Positions 4,651-60,044 of a stretch of DNA of 64,000 bases are shown one piece after another. Position 1 is the first letter of the stretch. The number at the start of each line of letters is the position of its first letter. This DNA comes from Lentzea guizhouensis (lineage in GTDB: Bacteria; Actinomycetota; Actinomycetes; Mycobacteriales; Pseudonocardiaceae): NCBI RefSeq assembly GCF_001701025.1, contig NZ_CP016793.1, forward strand, positions 372,001 through 436,000. Reading direction: 5' to 3'. A program made the position numbers and the translations under genes. The notes beneath the pieces were generated by a model. That model was not told the origin of the DNA. It saw nothing but the letters and a program-made list of their open reading frames with translations, and did not search any database.

Positions 4651-4666
4651 TCGAACACAGGTTCGA
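4651..4666. promoter_or_regulatory. SOS box (LexA site), perfect match
   Basis: TCGAACACAGGTTCGA matches the actinobacterial LexA operator TCGAAC-N4-GTTCGA at every fixed position. It is 32 bases upstream of the chiZ-like start and 172 bases upstream of the lexA start, so it mainly controls the chiZ-like gene. Confidence 0.9.
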
Positions 4667-38290: not shown

Positions 38291-38818
38291 CTAGCTCCTG
38301 TCCTGCAACGCCCGGCGGATCGTGTGCATCGCCTTGTACAGCCGGGACTTGACGGTTCCCTCCGGCACCCCCAGAACGATCGCGGCCTCCTTCACCGTCC
38401 GCCCCATGACATAGGTTTCGTAAATAGCCGAGCGGTGTTCATCACTCAATTGGCGTACTACGTCGGTGATGACCATGACGGAAAGTGTCTGTTCGGTGTC
38501 GTCCGGGGATTCGGCGATGTCCGGACGCAACAATTCGACTTCCTGCGGGCGCGCCTGCCGGCTGCGCCATCCGTCGATCACAATGCGACGAGCCACAGTA
38601 CAAAGCCAGCCGCGCAACATGCCGGGTTCACGAACAAGATGAGCCGAGTTCTGCCACGCCCTGATCAATGTCTCCTGAACTACGTCTTCCGTCCACTGGC
38701 GGTCGTAGTTGGTCAGGCACAGGACCTGCGAGAACAACGTTCGCTGGAACTGCCCGTACAGCAGCGTGAGCAATTCTTCGTCCTGACGGGCGTGTGCGAC
38801 CTTGCCCTGATCAGCCAT
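38291..38818 (-). CDS. ECF sigma factor
   Basis: A 175-residue group 4 sigma factor. Region 2 is at about 18-80 (LYGQFQRTLFSQV, then DVVQETLIRAWQN and LRGWLCTVARRIVID). Region 4 is at about 115-172 (LSDEHRSAIYETYVMGRTV, then LGVPEGTVKSRLYKAMHTI). It is co-transcribed with its anti-sigma factor. ATG 38818 was chosen because region 2 begins soon after and GGGGAGG lies upstream; a longer frame to 39076 has no family match. Base composition is more AT-rich than in neighbouring genes. The 259-base divergent region to the DUF4142 gene probably holds its target promoters, but no convincing -35/-10 pair was identified. Confidence 0.92.
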   Translation of the reverse strand: MADQGKVAHARQDEELLTLLYGQFQRTLFSQVLCLTNYDRQWTEDVVQETLIRAWQNSAHLVREPGMLRGWLCTVARRIVIDGWRSRQARPQEVELLRPDIAESPDDTEQTLSVMVITDVVRQLSDEHRSAIYETYVMGRTVKEAAIVLGVPEGTVKSRLYKAMHTIRRALQDRS

Positions 38819-39077
38819 GAAGCGTACGACCTCCCCAGATATCGGCGACGGCTTCGCTTCGGGCGGCAGTCCTAGCGACTCGGTGGCCGAGCGTGGAATC
38901 CCGCCGATACTACCCCGCGAACACGAAAAGCTCTCGGGTACGTAAATCGGCCACAAATGGTTCGCAGGCCCGCATGTGATGCACGTCACACTGCAGTCTG
39001 GCACATGTCGTGAACTGCGACTCCGCTTGCGCGTATCACCTTCGAAGGCAGCTCGATCACGGGGAGGAACGGGCACT

Positions 39078-40301
39078 ATGCGTCACCAGTTGGGGACGCT
39101 GGGCAAGAAGATCTGTCTTTTTAGCCTGCTGTCCGCAGCGTTTTCCTGGAGTTTTCTCGGTGTTGTTCCGGCGCACGGTCAATCAACTGACGTACAACCC
39201 TACGACCGCCAATTCATGGTCGCTCTCCGCCAAATCGACTCGTGGCTCATCCCGATGAGCAAAGACGCCCCGACCCGAACCACGAATGCGGGCCTGAGCA
39301 ACGCCGGCAGGGACATCTTCGAAGGACACTCACGACTCGACGTCGATTTGCTGAAAGCCGCTTCCGATCTTGGCGTGGTACTGCCGAACGACGCGAACAG
39401 TGAACACGCTTCACTCATCGACGACATGGCCGGACGCACCGGAGACAACCACGACCGCGCCTACGCGACGATCGTGCGACAGGCCCAGGGCGGCCTCCTG
39501 GTAATGGCCGTGCAAACACGTGCCACGACCCAGAACACCGCAATTCGCACACTCGCCCACCAAACGGTGCAAACACTGGTTCGCACAATGACGACCCTGG
39601 AGAACACAGGCCTGGTCGATCCGTCCGCACTCGAATTGGTGACGGCCAAGGCACAGGTGAACTCAGTGCGCGTCATCGGTCAAAACGCGGAACCGTCGGA
39701 CCGGGAAATGCTGGTGCTGCTCACCCAGCATTCGCTGTGGCAGAAACCGACCAGCCGGGAGGCCTCCGACCGCGGCCGCGACGCGCGGGTCCGCAAGGTC
39801 GCGGGCCAGCTCGCCGCCGAGCACACCCAGCTGGCCCGCGCGGTGTCCGACGCCGCCGCACAGATCGGTGTCGACCTGCCGGCCGAGCCGACGACCGAGC
39901 AGAAGTCGTGGGCGAACGCCGTGTCGTCCAGCTCGGGCGAGGAGCTCGACCGCATGTACGCGAACCTGGCACGTGCCGCCGACGGCACGCTCATCGTCCA
40001 GGTCGCCCAGGCCCGCGCGACGACCAAGAGCGTTCCCGCCCGCGTCGCCGCACAGACCGGCCTGACCCTCCTGCTCAAACACATGCTGCTGCTGGAGAGC
40101 ACCGGCCTGGTCAAGGCGACCTCGCTGCAGATGACCGAGACACCACCCATCGCCCAGACCAAGCAGAACACCCCCGCCACACCGGACGACTCCTCCACCG
40201 GCGTCGGCTTCCTCACCGGCATCGCCGTCCTCGTCGTCGCCGCCGCCGGCACCCTCTGGCTCGTCCGCGCCGTGGGCCACCACGGCAACCACCGCCGCTG
40301 A
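39078..40301 (+). CDS. Exported tandem DUF4142 protein with C-terminal membrane helix
   Basis: A 407-residue protein. After a signal peptide (1-36, cleavage near AHGQ) come two copies of the ferritin-like DUF4142 fold, about 45-175 (DRQFMVALRQIDSWLIPMS) and about 195-325 (DREMLVLLTQHSLWQKPTS). They share the pattern of long helices and the phrases QTRATTQ/QARATTK and LENTGLVD/LESTGLVK, so they arose by duplication. A Thr/Pro linker leads to a membrane helix (about 373-394). It is divergent from the ECF sigma operon, the likely controller. Function of the family is not established. The first half is more AT-rich than the second. Confidence 0.85.
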   Translation: MRHQLGTLGKKICLFSLLSAAFSWSFLGVVPAHGQSTDVQPYDRQFMVALRQIDSWLIPMSKDAPTRTTNAGLSNAGRDIFEGHSRLDVDLLKAASDLGVVLPNDANSEHASLIDDMAGRTGDNHDRAYATIVRQAQGGLLVMAVQTRATTQNTAIRTLAHQTVQTLVRTMTTLENTGLVDPSALELVTAKAQVNSVRVIGQNAEPSDREMLVLLTQHSLWQKPTSREASDRGRDARVRKVAGQLAAEHTQLARAVSDAAAQIGVDLPAEPTTEQKSWANAVSSSSGEELDRMYANLARAADGTLIVQVAQARATTKSVPARVAAQTGLTLLLKHMLLLESTGLVKATSLQMTETPPIAQTKQNTPATPDDSSTGVGFLTGIAVLVVAAAGTLWLVRAVGHHGNHRR

Positions 40302-40334
40302 TATATCGGGCGCGCCCTCGCCGCCCGATATATC
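40300..40334. terminator. GATATATC hairpin terminator after the DUF4142 gene
   Basis: GATATATCGGGCG (40300-40312) pairs perfectly with CGCCCGATATATC (40322-40334) around a 9-base loop. The left arm overlaps the TGA stop codon. The arrangement copies the hairpin at 13253: an AT-rich outer octamer, here with a G+C core. Confidence 0.7.
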
Positions 40335-40369
40335 GCTCATCTGCACGGCGCCGAGCTACCGCTACCAGC

Positions 40370-40420
40370 TTTTGCAACGGGTCTTTTGCGGACGTCGTCC
40401 AAAGACTCGTTGCAAGGGGG
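40370..40420. repeat. Dispersed inverted-repeat element, copy D
   Basis: TTGCAACGGGTCTTT (40372-40386) pairs with AAAGACTCGTTGCAA (40401-40415) at 14 of 15 positions, one being G-T. The loop TGCGGACGTCGTCC, read on the minus strand, matches the core of copy B (TTTGGACGACG, CCGCAAA). GGGGG follows, as in copy A. It lies between convergent genes. Confidence 0.8.
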
Positions 40421-40471
40421 CAGGTCAGCGCGGTGCAGCTGTTGTCATAACTACTGACGACGGTTGCCGAG

Positions 40472-40840
40472 CTACGGCTGGCCGAGGCGGAATGTGCCCA
40501 GCACCTCAGCACCACCGGTGCTGTTGCGGACGACGGCGACGTGGTCCGCGTCCGGCGGTGCAGGTACGACGACGGTGACGACGGACGGAGCTGCCGCACC
40601 GATATATGGATCTTCGGGGAACACCTCGACACTGGTGCCGATCCCCGTCGACACCGGCACGCAGCCGAGCGAGCGGCCGTCACGGGTGCGGACCTCGACG
40701 TGGTCGCCGGGCCGGCGGTCGCGGGCGAGCTCACCGGCCACGTGCACCGGGTGCTGCTCGACCAGGCGCAGGCCGTCGGCGGCGAACTCGAAGATCATCC
40801 GGACGGACCGGGTGGATCTGGCGGCCGGAACATCGGTCAC
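40472..40840 (-). CDS. Small beta-rich protein of unknown function
   Basis: A 122-residue protein without signal peptide or membrane helix. Beta-strand-like segments alternate with turns (VRMIFEFAADGLRLVEQHPV, DHVEVRTRDGRSLGCVPV, SVVTVVVPAPPDADHVAVV). No family recognised. Codons for Pro-Tyr-Ile-Gly lie in the AT-rich word GATATATG (plus strand). It is 55 bases downstream of the HD-Pnk gene on the same strand and could be part of that operon, but nothing in it suggests RNA binding. GTG 40840 is the likely start. Confidence 0.65.
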   Translation of the reverse strand: MTDVPAARSTRSVRMIFEFAADGLRLVEQHPVHVAGELARDRRPGDHVEVRTRDGRSLGCVPVSTGIGTSVEVFPEDPYIGAAAPSVVTVVVPAPPDADHVAVVRNSTGGAEVLGTFRLGQP

Positions 40841-40895
40841 GGTGCACTCCCCGAGGACTGAGCAGGGTCCCTTACAGGAGTCATCGGCGGAAGAA

Positions 40896-42029
40896 CTACG
40901 TACGTGTCGGCACGAGAGAGGTGTCCACCCGTTCGACGGCGTGCGCCTCGGTGACGTCGACGGCCTCCCACTTGTCGACCAGCCGGTCGATCACGGCCGC
41001 CGGCACCGGTTCCGGACGAGAACGGTTGCGGGCGTGGATCACGCCCTTCGGTGCTTCCAGCCCGATGAGCGTGACCCGAGCGCGGTAGTCCGCTGCGAGC
41101 CCGATGCAACGGTCACGCAGGTGGCGCGAGATGTTGGTCGCGTTCCACACGAACCGCTCCCCCGCTCTCAACAACACCCGCGCCTCTTCGAAGGCTGCCG
41201 CCGCCACGGTCCGTTGGTCGCCATCGGGTGCGATACCGAGACGTGCGCGCACGGCGTCGAGACTCACCACCGGCCAGCCCGGCCGATGCGTGGCGATCCA
41301 GTGGTCCTTGCCGACACCTGGCAGACCCGACAGCACAGTCACCTCGACGCGCGTGTCGTCGTAGGCGGCATAACCGGGGTCGCGGCCCGGCGTGCGGAAG
41401 TACTGGAACCGCGCGTGGTCCGACGGGAACTCCCGCGGCCGGTCCAGGCACGAGTGTTCCCGGCAGTACTCCTCGAACAGCGCGATGTTCTCCAGCACCG
41501 ACTCGGCGTCACCGCAGATCCGGCCGAGGATGTCGGCCCGCGCGAGCGTCGCCAGGTCGTCGTTGCGCGCGACCAGGCTCACCCGGAACGCGATCCGGTC
41601 GAGGTCCGGCCTCTCCAGCGCCCAGAACGGCACCTGGTGGTGCCGCACCAGGGCAGCGACGTGCTCACGCCACTCGATCGGCCGCCCCATCTCCCACAGC
41701 AACCTGCGCGCCAGCAGGTCCCCGGCGCGTGAGTGGCCGTGCGCGGTGATCCGCTCGTCCTCGACCTGCGTGCGAAACGGCTTCGCGACGTCATGCAGCA
41801 ACACGGTCGCGAACAACCGCACACGATCGGTCTCCGACCGCGCCCGCCACTCCGGCAGCGCGACCAACGCTTCACACGCCATGCGCGTATGCGTCGCAAC
41901 GTCCCCCTCGGCGTGATGCACCGAGTCCTGCGGAACGCCCTCCAACGCGCGTACCCACGCAAACGCGTCATGCACGGCATCCCAGTCCAACGTCCACGAC
42001 GGACCGGAAGGACACAACTGCTCAAACAC
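40896..42029 (-). CDS. HD-Pnk: RNA/DNA end-healing phosphoesterase-kinase
   Basis: A 377-residue two-domain protein. The N-terminal HD phosphohydrolase domain has His47, the HD pair His79-Asp80 in LLHDVAKPFR, His97 and His130-His131. The C-terminal polynucleotide-kinase domain has P-loop GLPGVGKD (235-242), a general-base-type Asp258 in SLDAVR and lid arginines in ARNRSRPEPVP. This matches HD-Pnk enzymes, which remove 2',3'-cyclic phosphates and phosphorylate 5'-OH ends. GTG 42029 overlaps the RNA ligase stop by 8 bases, so healing and sealing enzymes are translated together. Targets are unknown; cleaved tRNA is the obvious candidate. Confidence 0.88.
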   Translation of the reverse strand: MFEQLCPSGPSWTLDWDAVHDAFAWVRALEGVPQDSVHHAEGDVATHTRMACEALVALPEWRARSETDRVRLFATVLLHDVAKPFRTQVEDERITAHGHSRAGDLLARRLLWEMGRPIEWREHVAALVRHHQVPFWALERPDLDRIAFRVSLVARNDDLATLARADILGRICGDAESVLENIALFEEYCREHSCLDRPREFPSDHARFQYFRTPGRDPGYAAYDDTRVEVTVLSGLPGVGKDHWIATHRPGWPVVSLDAVRARLGIAPDGDQRTVAAAAFEEARVLLRAGERFVWNATNISRHLRDRCIGLAADYRARVTLIGLEAPKGVIHARNRSRPEPVPAAVIDRLVDKWEAVDVTEAHAVERVDTSLVPTRT

Positions 42030-42789
42030 GGGCCACCACCCGGTTCGGCAGAATCGGCCGGTCCTGCCAGTGGCTGCCCGAGTCCAGCACGGCAGTGAGG
42101 AACGTCGACCGCACCCACTTGTACCGCTCGACTGTGCGCCCGCCCTCCTCCACCTTGATGTAGAGACCTTCCATGTCGTCGTCGGAGTCCGTCTCCGCGA
42201 CAACGACATCCGGGTCCTGTCCGGCCGAGCGCGCCGCCTCCACCAAGACGTCCCGCCATCGCTCCGTGCGACACGTAGACGGTCCGACGAACGACTTCAG
42301 CTCACGCAACGTCCGCACCGGCCCCTCGTGCAGCACCGGCACGGACACCACCGGCGTACCCGCGAGGATCCGCCGGCGTTCCGGTGTGGACAGGAACTCA
42401 CCGGTCTCCCGGTCGAGCAGGTCGAACTCGCAGAAGTGGTGCGGCAGCGCGTCGTAGAACACCGTGTGCTTGGCGTACAACCATTCCCCGTACAGCACGA
42501 AACGCGTACCGAGCCGTTCGTGCAACACCGCCTGATGCGTCGCTGCCCACGCCTTCAGCGGCGCGAACTGCCGTTCCCGCGGCCCACCGGTCAGGAAATG
42601 GCCACGTGACTGCAGCTGCAGCACACCGGACGGCGAGAAGCTGATGCCCGCGTTGGCACCGTCGAGCTTCTCCTCGACGACGAGGTGCCGCCCCGCGATC
42701 GCACGGAACGGCACCTGGTCGAGGTCCTCGTCGCCCGGCTGCAGGCGCGAGCCCTCGAGGTGGGGCGTCCGCGGGTACTTGCGCAACAT
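42022..42789 (-). CDS. ATP-dependent RNA ligase (Rnl2-like)
   Basis: A 255-residue nucleotidyltransferase that would seal 3'-OH/5'-phosphate RNA ends. All ligase motifs are visible: motif I EKLDGAN with nucleophile Lys41, Ia SRG (61-63), III VLYGEW (98-103), IIIa FCEFDLLD (119-126), IV EGLYIKVE (207-214) and V ERYKWVR (221-227). There is no C-terminal extension, so it is a minimal enzyme. It precedes HD-Pnk with an 8-base overlap. ATG 42789 is chosen because MLRKYPRTPHLEGSRL begins the conserved part; TACAAA seven bases before suggests a leaderless or near-leaderless transcript. Confidence 0.9.
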   Translation of the reverse strand: MLRKYPRTPHLEGSRLQPGDEDLDQVPFRAIAGRHLVVEEKLDGANAGISFSPSGVLQLQSRGHFLTGGPRERQFAPLKAWAATHQAVLHERLGTRFVLYGEWLYAKHTVFYDALPHHFCEFDLLDRETGEFLSTPERRRILAGTPVVSVPVLHEGPVRTLRELKSFVGPSTCRTERWRDVLVEAARSAGQDPDVVVAETDSDDDMEGLYIKVEEGGRTVERYKWVRSTFLTAVLDSGSHWQDRPILPNRVVARV

Positions 42790-42831
42790 GCCCCGATTTG
42801 TAACCCGCCACAGCACTCGCGGGCGAACGGT

Positions 42832-43563
42832 TTACGCCTGCCCGACGAACGCCGCCTTGTCGGAGTTGAAGCTCGGCTCGAACACGAGCTGCATCTCACC
42901 GGGCTGCGCGCCGACGGCGTAGGCGACCTCGTAGGCGAAGGTCTTGCCGGGCAACACGGTCGCGTTGTCGAACCCGCCACCGCAGCCGCCGCTGGAGTCG
43001 AACACCCGCTCCGCCTTCTGCCCGTTGAACTGCGCGTCGTCGCCCAGCGACAACAGCGCGGTCTCGAAGGCCGCGCTCGTGCCGTTGGTGATGGTGACCG
43101 TGAACTTCACCGCGCGCACGATGCTCGTCGGCGACGCGTACGCGCCGGGCGTGCACGGCACCGGCGGCGCGACGTCGACCGCGAGCCCGTTGGCCCACGT
43201 GTGCTGCTTGCTCCACGTCGACGTCGCGGCGGGCGCGGACTGCGACACCGGGCCGCCGTCGAGGATCCGGTCCAGCTCCTCGACCGCTTTCCGTTGCGCC
43301 GCAAAGGTTGCCGTGACACCGGCGACGCACAGCACGACACCGATGAGCGCGAGCACCTTGCGCGTGCCGAACAACGCGACCACGCCCAGCACCAGACCGA
43401 CGAACGCGGCGATGACGGTGACGTTGTTGAAGATGATGATCGGCGAACCGACTAGGCCCACGATCCCGAGGATCACCGCGGTCCAGGCGAGCGCCCCGAA
43501 CCTGGCCGGCTTCGGCGGCACCGGCTGCGGCGGGACGTGGACGGACTGCGTCGGGTTGGTCAT
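42832..43563 (-). CDS. Membrane-anchored DUF4352-like protein
   Basis: A 243-residue protein: a Pro-rich cytoplasmic start (1-22), three closely spaced membrane helices (about 24-45, 47-66 and 72-90), then an extracytoplasmic beta-sandwich (about 120-243) with KFTVTITNGTSAAF and VLPGKTFAYEVAYAV. The domain resembles the immunoglobulin-like DUF4352 fold of actinobacterial surface proteins. Cysteines in VPCTPG and GGCGGG may form a disulfide. ATG 43563 follows AGGAG. It ends 43 bases from the RNA ligase start on the same strand but is unlikely to share its function. Confidence 0.75.
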   Translation of the reverse strand: MTNPTQSVHVPPQPVPPKPARFGALAWTAVILGIVGLVGSPIIIFNNVTVIAAFVGLVLGVVALFGTRKVLALIGVVLCVAGVTATFAAQRKAVEELDRILDGGPVSQSAPAATSTWSKQHTWANGLAVDVAPPVPCTPGAYASPTSIVRAVKFTVTITNGTSAAFETALLSLGDDAQFNGQKAERVFDSSGGCGGGFDNATVLPGKTFAYEVAYAVGAQPGEMQLVFEPSFNSDKAAFVGQA

Positions 43564-43814
43564 CACGGCTCCTGAGCGGTTGCGAAGTGTGATCACGACG
43601 TCGATCGGCCTGCTTCACCCGTTACCCACCAAAACCAGTCATGACCGCCTCGACACACGCCCTCTGAGCAGCGACAACAGCGCAAACACCGAACCCGCCG
43701 CATCACCTGATCGAGTTAACGCGGGCACGGCTTCCGACTTCCGTCGGTAGCGAGACGGATACGATCCGTACACGCTGGCCCGGTTGGATGCCATTTCCCG
43801 AAAGGACCCCTGTG

Positions 43815-46688: not shown

Positions 46689-47197
46689 TACGACCAGGTC
46701 TCGTCCAACGCCGCGGCCTCGTCGCCTGCCGCACGCAGCTCGTCGCGCACCACCCGGTACGCGAGCCCTTCCGCGTATCCCTTGCGCGCCAACGCCCCCA
46801 CGAGCCGGCGGATCTTCGCCGTCTCGTCCACACCGGACATCGTGCGCAGCCGTTTGCGGACCAGCTCGCGCGCCTTCTCCTCCTCGGCCTCGCCGTCGAC
46901 CGCGGCGACGGCCTCGGCCACCACCTCGTCGGCGACGCCCTTGCGGCGCAGCTCCATGACGAGGGCGCGGCGGCCCAGGCCGTTGTAGGTGTGCCGCGAC
47001 TGCACCCACATCTCGGCGAACTGCGCGTCGTCGATCAGGCCGGCGCGGTCGAACTTTCCGAGGACGACCTCGGCCACACCGGCACTGATCCCCTTGCGTA
47101 GCAACGCGTCGTGCAGCTCCTGCCGCGAACGGGCCCGAGCGGTGAGCAGCGCGTAGCAGATGTCGCGTGCTTTGCGCTGCTCCTCAGCCTCGTCCAA
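46688..47197 (-). CDS. recX: RecX, regulator of RecA filaments
   Basis: RecX caps and limits RecA filament growth. The protein is 169 residues with three-helix repeat units: CYALLTARARSRQELHDALLRKG, then FDRAGLIDDAQFAEMWVQSR and ARELVRKRLRTMS. It is 8 bases downstream of recA and thus SOS-induced with it. Length and spacing are normal for actinobacteria. Confidence 0.95.
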   Translation of the reverse strand: MDEAEEQRKARDICYALLTARARSRQELHDALLRKGISAGVAEVVLGKFDRAGLIDDAQFAEMWVQSRHTYNGLGRRALVMELRRKGVADEVVAEAVAAVDGEAEEEKARELVRKRLRTMSGVDETAKIRRLVGALARKGYAEGLAYRVVRDELRAAGDEAAALDETWS

Positions 47198-47205
47198 CGC
47201 GGAAC

Positions 47206-48252
47206 TCAGAACTCGACGGGAGCGGCGGGTGCCGACTCGTCGGCGTCGAGCGTGGCGCCGATGCCGAGCTTGTCCTTGATCCGCTTCTCGATCTCGTTCG
47301 CGATGTCCGGGTTGTCCAGCAGGAACTTGCGGGCGTTCTCCTTGCCCTGGCCGAGCTGGTCGCCCTCGTAGGTGTACCAGGCACCGGACTTGCGCAGGAT
47401 GCCCTGGTCGACGCCCATGTCGATGAGCGAGCCCTCGCGGCTGACGCCCTTGCCGTAGAGGATGTCGAACTCGGCCTGCTTGAAGGGCGGCGCGACCTTG
47501 TTCTTCACGACCTTGACCCTGGTGCGGTTGCCGACGGGCTCGCCGCCGTCCTTCAGGGTCTCGATGCGGCGGACGTCGAGGCGCACGGAGGCGTAGAACT
47601 TCAGCGCCTTACCACCGGTCGTGGTCTCCGGGGAGCCGAACATCACGCCGATCTTCTCGCGCAGCTGGTTGATGAAGATCGCGGTCGTGTTCGACGCGCT
47701 CAGCGCACCGGTGATCTTGCGCAGCGCCTGGCTCATCAGGCGGGCCTGCAGACCGACGTGGTTGTCACCCATCTCGCCCTCGATCTCGGCGCGCGGCACG
47801 AGGGCGGCGACCGAGTCGATGACCAGGATGTCGAGCGCGCCGGAGCGGACCAGCATGTCCGCGATCTCCAGGGCCTGCTCACCGGTGTCGGGCTGCGACA
47901 CCAGCAGCGCGTCGGTGTCGACGCCCAGCTTCTTCGCGTACTCGGGGTCGAGGGCGTGCTCCGCGTCGATGAACGCCGCGATGCCGCCCGCCTTCTGGGC
48001 GTTCGCCACGGCGTGCAGCGCCACGGTCGTCTTACCGGAGGACTCCGGACCGTAGATCTCGACCACGCGACCCCTGGGCAGGCCACCGATGCCGAGCGCC
48101 ACGTCCAGCGCGATCGCACCGGTCGGGATCACCTCGATCGGGGCGCGGCCCTCCTCGCCGAGGCGCATCACGGAGCCCTTGCCGAACTGCTTGTCGATCT
48201 GCGCCAGGGCCAGCTCGAGCGCCTTGTCCCGGTCGGGTGCTGCGGGTGCCAT
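47206..48252 (-). CDS. recA: RecA recombinase and SOS co-protease
   Basis: RecA drives strand exchange and LexA cleavage. The protein is 348 residues. Seen: Walker [10 protein letters not shown], catalytic Glu in DAEHALDP, Walker [11 protein letters not shown] and the DNA-binding loops (MGDNHVGLQ and [10 protein letters not shown]). No intein is present, unlike M. tuberculosis. ATG 48252 follows AGGTGGA; the frame to 48378 spans promoter sequence. Two promoters are visible upstream: a RecA_NDp/PafBC-type promoter at 48302-48324 and an SOS box at 48357-48372, the same arrangement as in mycobacteria. Confidence 0.98.
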
Positions 48253-48301
48253 CTTGGGTCCACCTTTTGTCGTCTGCCGTTGCTTCGTCATGTTGGACCT
48301 G

Positions 48302-48324
48302 ACGCTACTGGCGGGGTCTGACAA
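48302..48324 (-). promoter_or_regulatory. RecA_NDp (PafBC-type) promoter of recA
   Basis: On the minus strand TTGTCAGAC-N8-TAGCGT fits the LexA-independent RecA_NDp consensus TTGTCRGTG-N8-TANNNT with two mismatches in the first block. Transcription would begin near 48295, giving a leader of about 43 bases with the recA ribosome binding site. A near-identical sequence precedes lhr at 51845. Confidence 0.75.
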
Positions 48325-48356
48325 TTTTGCGAAGCCGGGGGTCGGGGCCACTGTAG

Positions 48357-48372
48357 CCGAACACGTGTTCGA
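48357..48372. promoter_or_regulatory. SOS box upstream of recA, one mismatch
   Basis: CCGAACACGTGTTCGA differs from TCGAAC-N4-GTTCGA only at the first base. It is 105 bases before the recA start and distal to the PafBC-type promoter. Confidence 0.85.
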
Positions 48373-48399
48373 GCACACGTGACACTCCGAACCGTGAGA

Positions 48400-60028: not shown

Positions 60029-60044
60029 TCGAACATGTGTTCGA
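60029..60044. promoter_or_regulatory. SOS box upstream of the HEPN operon, perfect match
   Basis: TCGAACATGTGTTCGA fits TCGAAC-N4-GTTCGA exactly and is symmetrical. It lies 107 bases before the HEPN gene start, leaving a leader of about 85-100 bases with a strong hairpin. Confidence 0.9.

Follow-up and report, generated by a model that had tools for sequence, protein, structure and literature searches.

The ligase and HD-Pnk genes of Lentzea guizhouensis form a two-gene cassette that is probably a chromosomal nucleic-acid end-repair system, preceded in actinomycetes by a putative leaderless-type promoter. Within the 64,000-nucleotide stretch analysed here (the window, 372001-436000 of a 10-Mb contig), the cassette is a real pair, far beyond chance. 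The cassette itself is already known, and the one new lead is a conserved promoter-like block in front of it. The first gene (P0001, 42022..42789, reverse strand) starts at an ATG at 42789 and encodes a 255-aa ATP-dependent RNA ligase (PF09414) comprising the nucleotidyltransferase core only. The second (P0002, 40896..42029, reverse strand) starts at a GTG at 42029 and encodes a 377-aa HD-Pnk with an N-terminal HD phosphoesterase and a C-terminal P-loop 5'-OH polynucleotide kinase. As noted in the initial annotation, the two genes share 8 bases (GTGTTTGA, 42022..42029, reverse strand), which hold the GTG start of the HD-Pnk gene and the TGA stop of the ligase gene; among 24 Lentzea-genus loci, 23 have this overlap of 8 bases and one has an overlap of 14. 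The closest protein among the matches listed is from L. nigeriaca (88%). A search for structured RNA across 40300-43700 returned no Rfam match at gathering scores, and the 64-kb window contains no tRNA gene.

Both proteins retain the residues expected of active enzymes. The ligase scores 131.9 bits against Pfam RNA_ligase (cut-off 27) and carries K41 within EEKLDGANAG (motif I), followed by VLYGEW, CEFDLLD, EGLYIKV and YKWVR; the initial annotation had likewise credited it with all nucleotidyltransferase motifs. Lys41, E40, D43, G44, R62, E102, E207, G208, K224 and R227 are invariant across 12 aligned ligases, that of the window included. When the ligase profile was compared with solved structures, the best matches were labelled ATP-dependent DNA ligase and RNA ligases came only next, all of them distant. 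The proposed fusion of an HD phosphoesterase to a polynucleotide kinase is borne out by Pfam matches to HD (26.5 bits, cut-off 22) and AAA_33 (71.6 bits, cut-off 27), and by a predicted structure with a pLDDT of 95.9, in which the HD half aligns with PDB 3wfo ('tRNA processing enzyme') and the kinase half finds its nearest fold match in the Clostridium thermocellum polynucleotide kinase. Among 38 aligned HD-Pnks, again including that of the window, H40, H48, H80-D81, K84, H100, D167, K242, D259, R262 and R306 are invariant (P0002 numbering, one more than counting from the GTG). Neither a metal-binding His or Asp (H40, H48, H80, D81, H100, D167) nor the kinase Asp is lost in any of them, and G241-K242, D259, R262 and R306 make up an equally invariant kinase set, in which the P-loop Lys, general-base Asp and Arg presumably play the roles assigned from T4 Pnk.

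The initial annotation had also put forward a third operon member, a small beta-rich protein (P0003, 122 aa, 40472..40840, reverse strand) encoded 55 bases after HD-Pnk. This gene occurs in just 8 of 24 Lentzea-genus genomes, always immediately after HD-Pnk, and in none of the 36 other relatives searched; because it is absent from 16 of the 24, it can be at most an accessory and not a regular member. Where present, it is 56-65% identical while the pair is about 90% identical, and its 42 database relatives at E 0.01 are, where named, mostly from Lentzea. Its predicted structure has a pLDDT of 80.7; P0003 has no Pfam match above cut-off, and comparison with the PDB gave nothing below E 0.6 by profile or below E 0.2 by fold (Foldseek), although silence from Foldseek is no proof of a new fold. 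Beyond it, at 38291-40301, an ECF-type sigma factor gene stands divergent from a gene for a DUF4142 protein; of 14 Lentzea-genus stretches, 12 contain both. On the other side, at a distance of about 4 kb upstream, are recA and recX (46691-48399, reverse strand); all 14 Lentzea-genus stretches fetched around the operon include recA, as does that of G044, a genome of another genus. The actinobacterial LexA box has the form TCGAAC-N4-GTTCGA, and perfect matches to it are found in the window at 4651-4666 and 60029-60044.

Direct pairing of HD-Pnk with a minimal ligase had been considered unusual for an actinomycete, a view that the comparative analysis overturned. HD-Pnk is present in all 24 Lentzea-genus genomes, the matched span being interrupted by a single in-frame stop in two of them (G010, G013), and the ligase lies directly upstream in all 24 as well as in G044. 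A ligase-profile match precedes HD-Pnk at 33 of 36 named-genome loci from many phyla, the exceptions being L061, L074 and L078; this count covers the first 35 and L127 of the 80 loci returned, the other 44 matching the HD part only, and frames are split or broken at L060 and L073. In genus g204, HD-Pnk follows the ligase within 200 bases at 29 of 30 loci, with a partial same-strand match at the thirtieth, and it follows the ligase at 10 of 10 further loci from the window's own family, one of which (L346) repeats L026. Pairing is thus conserved among relatives and is, mostly so among the loci examined, the rule where HD-Pnk occurs. The partner ligases may fall into two or more groups: many exceed 300 bits on the ligase profile, some are intermediate, and those at L056, L058, L060, L080, L081 and L127 reach only about 90-165 bits. 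At L080 (5255-7855), a deltaproteobacterial MAG, HD-Pnk has a ligase gene on either side, all three genes lying on one strand.

The scarcity assumed at the outset held at one taxonomic level and failed at another. In a sample of the class, HD-Pnk was found in just 6 of 296 genomes (2 of 115 genera), with the ligase in the same six and adjacent, and the other 290 had neither gene at the limits used. The ligase is nevertheless concentrated in some genera. One actinomycete order has it in 7 of 70 genera (92 of 345 genomes, some matches being partial), and another family, placed in that order, has 4 positives among 80 genomes; in the window's own family it is carried by 21 of 200 genomes, from 4 of 46 genera. 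The cassette is therefore patchy across the class yet fixed in some actinomycete genera.

Members of the HD-Pnk family are often encoded beside an ATP-dependent ligase, and those of Runella slithyformis and Deinococcus radiodurans are reportedly the subject of work by Munir and Shuman and by Schmier and Shuman. The Lentzea protein has the domain order and size of this family and differs from it in nothing fundamental, so that the window holds an actinomycete member. Pnkp, unlike the Lentzea pair, combines kinase, metallophosphoesterase and ligase domains within a single polypeptide; assignment of HD-Pnk to bacterial Pnkp (TIGR04075) was rejected at 34 bits against a cut-off of 750, with only the kinase part matching. 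The bacterial Pnkp/Rnl/Hen1 RNA repair complex, as described in PMC4411300, shares the logic of healing and sealing, and the kinase of bacterial Pnkp is the nearest fold to the HD-Pnk kinase half.

A closer counterpart is the D. radiodurans operon of DRB0100 (ligase), DRB0099 (macro-domain) and DRB0098 (HD/polynucleotide kinase), described in PMC1274311 (2005) and in the same terms in passages of PMC1997131 (2007), PMC1978522 and PMC11833690 (2025), and published as a putative repair operon induced by ionising radiation. Both operons have the ligase first, HD-Pnk last and overlapping genes, and their HD and kinase residues agree: H81/D82 of DRB0098 align with H80/D81 of the Lentzea protein. 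They differ in that a macro-domain/PARG gene separates ligase and HD-Pnk in Deinococcus, whereas the Lentzea genes overlap directly, and the proteins are only about 27-31% identical; with no macro-domain gene between the two in the window, the three-gene Deinococcus type was set aside. According to the account in PMC1997131, DRB0098 has kinase activity while a 3'-phosphatase could not be assigned to its HD domain, and the same account and that of PMC1978522 have DRB0100 giving adenylyltransferase activity and no ligation by itself.

Upstream of the ligase gene we identified a block that recurs across lineages within 100 bases of the ATG. It comprises, in order, a GAAAACCGGTTGG-like box, about 20 bases, TASAAM, 6-7 bases and the start codon. 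In the window there is an overlap between the box (GTAAACCGTTCGC, 42823..42835, reverse strand) and the stop codon of the preceding gene, and the -10-like element TACAAA (42797..42802, reverse strand) lies 7 bases before the ATG; outside the window the box consensus is about GAAAACCGGTTGG or GAAAACCGGTGGC. Of 36 upstream regions, 35 have a box near GAAAACCGGTGGC followed after 19-20 bases by TASAAM when up to 5 mismatches are allowed over 19 positions; this count is descriptive because the consensus was written after inspecting those sequences. TASAAM is 6-7 bases from the chosen start in 34 of these 35; the distance is 1 at L037, where the start was probably misplaced by the script. The one failing region is that of L054, an Actinomycetota MAG, from which the block is missing.

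The leave-one-lineage-out analysis and both matrix tests score held-out sequences. When each of nine lineages was left out in turn, the omitted site beat all 2.4 million positions in 1.2 Mb of genome G315, narrowly so for L241 (19.8 vs 19.6). A matrix trained without g204 gave at least 19.1 at all 30 g204 loci, which represent one genus and not independent lineages, against a background maximum of 13.9 (1614 pieces). A matrix built from the other family and Actinomadura alone gave 20.4-27.2 at all 25 loci L003-L027 and at least 18.1 at 8 of the 10 further own-family loci; the remaining two, L350 and L352, scored 12.9, below the background maximum of 17.9 (1552 pieces). These two and L054 are the three tested loci at which the block is absent or weak, and they count against the promoter reading.

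Comparable sites are rare elsewhere. Of 954 75-base pieces preceding an ATG in the window, one had at most 4 mismatches (3, equal to the operon's own site) and three had 5. No comparable promoter site was seen elsewhere in the window. No comparable site was found in 2.0 Mb (32%) of contig 1 of G315, where the best site, located within what we take to be a secA-like coding sequence, scored 22.0 and the training sites 26.0-32.4. The 1.5-kb flanks of the RtcB, Pnkp and Tpt1 genes of L. guizhouensis itself contain no box match with fewer than 4 mismatches. The surroundings of the block differ between the families: comparison of 5 own-family with 7 other-family and Actinomadura loci revealed no shared frame of at least 80 aa outside the pair at E 1e-6 in the stretches compared, recA and other genes are common neighbours within the own family, and g97 and Actinomadura have a few weak matches (25-55% identity) in common. 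Between the two families the cis element thus stays with the cassette while other neighbours within several kb differ.

If the first base of the start codon is taken as +1, TASAAM sits at the -10 position, which leads to a leaderless reading. Scanning 40300-43100 with the sigma-70 consensus revealed no promoter-like site, and the upstream block departs from that consensus. Literature searches, made without most subscription journals, found no paper describing AACCGGTT as an actinobacterial promoter and none linking leaderless promoters, RNA repair and actinobacteria. As far as it can be read from these sequences, the arrangement suggests that transcription of the cassette is leaderless and under an unlinked regulator.

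Gene identities, catalytic residues, pairing, overlap and conservation of the upstream block were established by computation, and the identities, motifs and overlap support the healing-plus-sealing logic first proposed for the pair. The substrate would be a break leaving a 2',3'-cyclic phosphate (or a 2'/3'-phosphate) and a 5'-OH, and one polypeptide, HD-Pnk, would heal both ends. By analogy with the HD-Pnk chemistry of the literature, the HD domain would use a transition metal to remove the 3' phosphate, while phosphorylation of the 5' end would fall to the P-loop domain; the adenylylated product of the upstream gene would then seal. The overlapping frames would couple synthesis of the two proteins, and both genes would stand behind the leaderless-type promoter and its upstream box, making an unlinked regulator probable. 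RNA is the likely main substrate; that the target is tRNA is only a guess. The same genome encodes RtcB (G000:C1:332606), a full-length bacterial Pnkp (G000:C1:2002668) and a Tpt1/KptA homologue (G000:C1:4688985), so that, counting the ligase/HD-Pnk cassette, this one bacterium has four kinds of system for processing RNA ends. These homologues weigh against our main reading, in that they leave the special target of the cassette unclear.

The better of two alternatives, that the cassette mainly processes the ends of DNA strand breaks and that its ligase acts only with partner proteins, appears unlikely. It draws on Deinococcus, whose radiation-induced operon has been discussed as DNA repair, whose HD-Pnk is described in PMC1997131 as phosphorylating a DNA oligonucleotide and is said in the title of a 2018 paper to abet resistance to ionising radiation and mitomycin C, and whose DrLigB is stated in one paper's introduction to need partner proteins for end joining. 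The DRB0100 mutant is, however, given as fully radiation-resistant in PMC1978522. The recX-recA genes close to the operon could hint at DNA repair too, but no LexA-like or PafBC-like match with up to 3 mismatches to the consensus occurs at 42790-42840, whereas the LexA-like box of recA (48357-48372) has a single mismatch, and SOS control of the operon was rejected. Two LexA-like matches with 3 mismatches lie just upstream, at 42866-42893; with up to 3 mismatches allowed, the whole window yields 70 LexA-like and 45 PafBC-like matches, both totals higher than in any of 100 shuffles. The proteins themselves also speak against a DNA role, the ligase belonging to Pfam RNA_ligase despite the DNA-ligase labels of its best structural matches, and the HD half of its partner aligning with a tRNA processing enzyme.

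Copies of the cassette also occur on mobile elements. HD-Pnk matches 43 plasmid records, in 3 of them along no more than roughly a third of the query, and the ligase matches 28; among 50,697 phage records HD-Pnk matches 1. In the 10 records whose neighbourhoods were fetched, the two genes adjoin in the Sphaerospermopsis, P. aeruginosa, Bosea and Methylorubrum plasmids and in the phage, and are neighbours with one small gene between them in that of Variovorax; such neighbouring genes overlap or lie 2 to about 550 bases apart. The fetched stretches of Proteus, Vibrio and Miltoncostaea contain no P0001 match, and the D. radiodurans ligase, though annotated, is too distant for a P0001 search. Of 17 IMG/VR contigs with HD-Pnk, taken from 80 returned and including two with identical figures that may be one sequence (L128, L130), 10 have a ligase match, downstream in one (L140), and one of the 7 without a match starts at a contig end. 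In the phage, an uncultured one of 462 kb (L047, LR756500.1, 3850-6059), a stretch that looks HNH-like by eye is joined to the RNA ligase, and HD-Pnk follows directly. That the cassette serves in phage conflict, restoring RNAs (tRNAs or others) that host or phage nucleases have cut, and was spread by mobile elements, would fit these plasmid and viral copies and the patchy distribution across the class but is improbable, given the single matching phage record, the cassette's one chromosomal place in Lentzea (a trypsin-like peptidase gene upstream and recA in 14 of 14 stretches examined, from 14 of the 24 genomes), and a PADLOC search in which no model matched the ligase and only a Cas3-HD model matched HD-Pnk, weakly (E 0.0015).

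For the end-repair cassette that we favour, the upstream block also bears on control. The RtcB/RtcA RNA repair operon with its regulator RtcR (PMC7790460) is a parallel case provided that this block has been read correctly, a dedicated regulator then governing the repair genes in both. Its ligase, RtcB, is unrelated, and in the shared neighbourhood no gene for a regulator was seen next to the ligase/HD-Pnk pair. It is conceivable, if somewhat short of an even chance, that a dedicated damage-sensing regulator encoded elsewhere reads the GAAAACCGGTTGG-like box abutting the -35 of a leaderless promoter; such a regulator would be the HD-Pnk counterpart of RtcR. If this is true and the regulator is found, it would show what damage the cassette answers, and the cis element gives a direct handle on whether HD-Pnk systems respond to RNA or to DNA damage.
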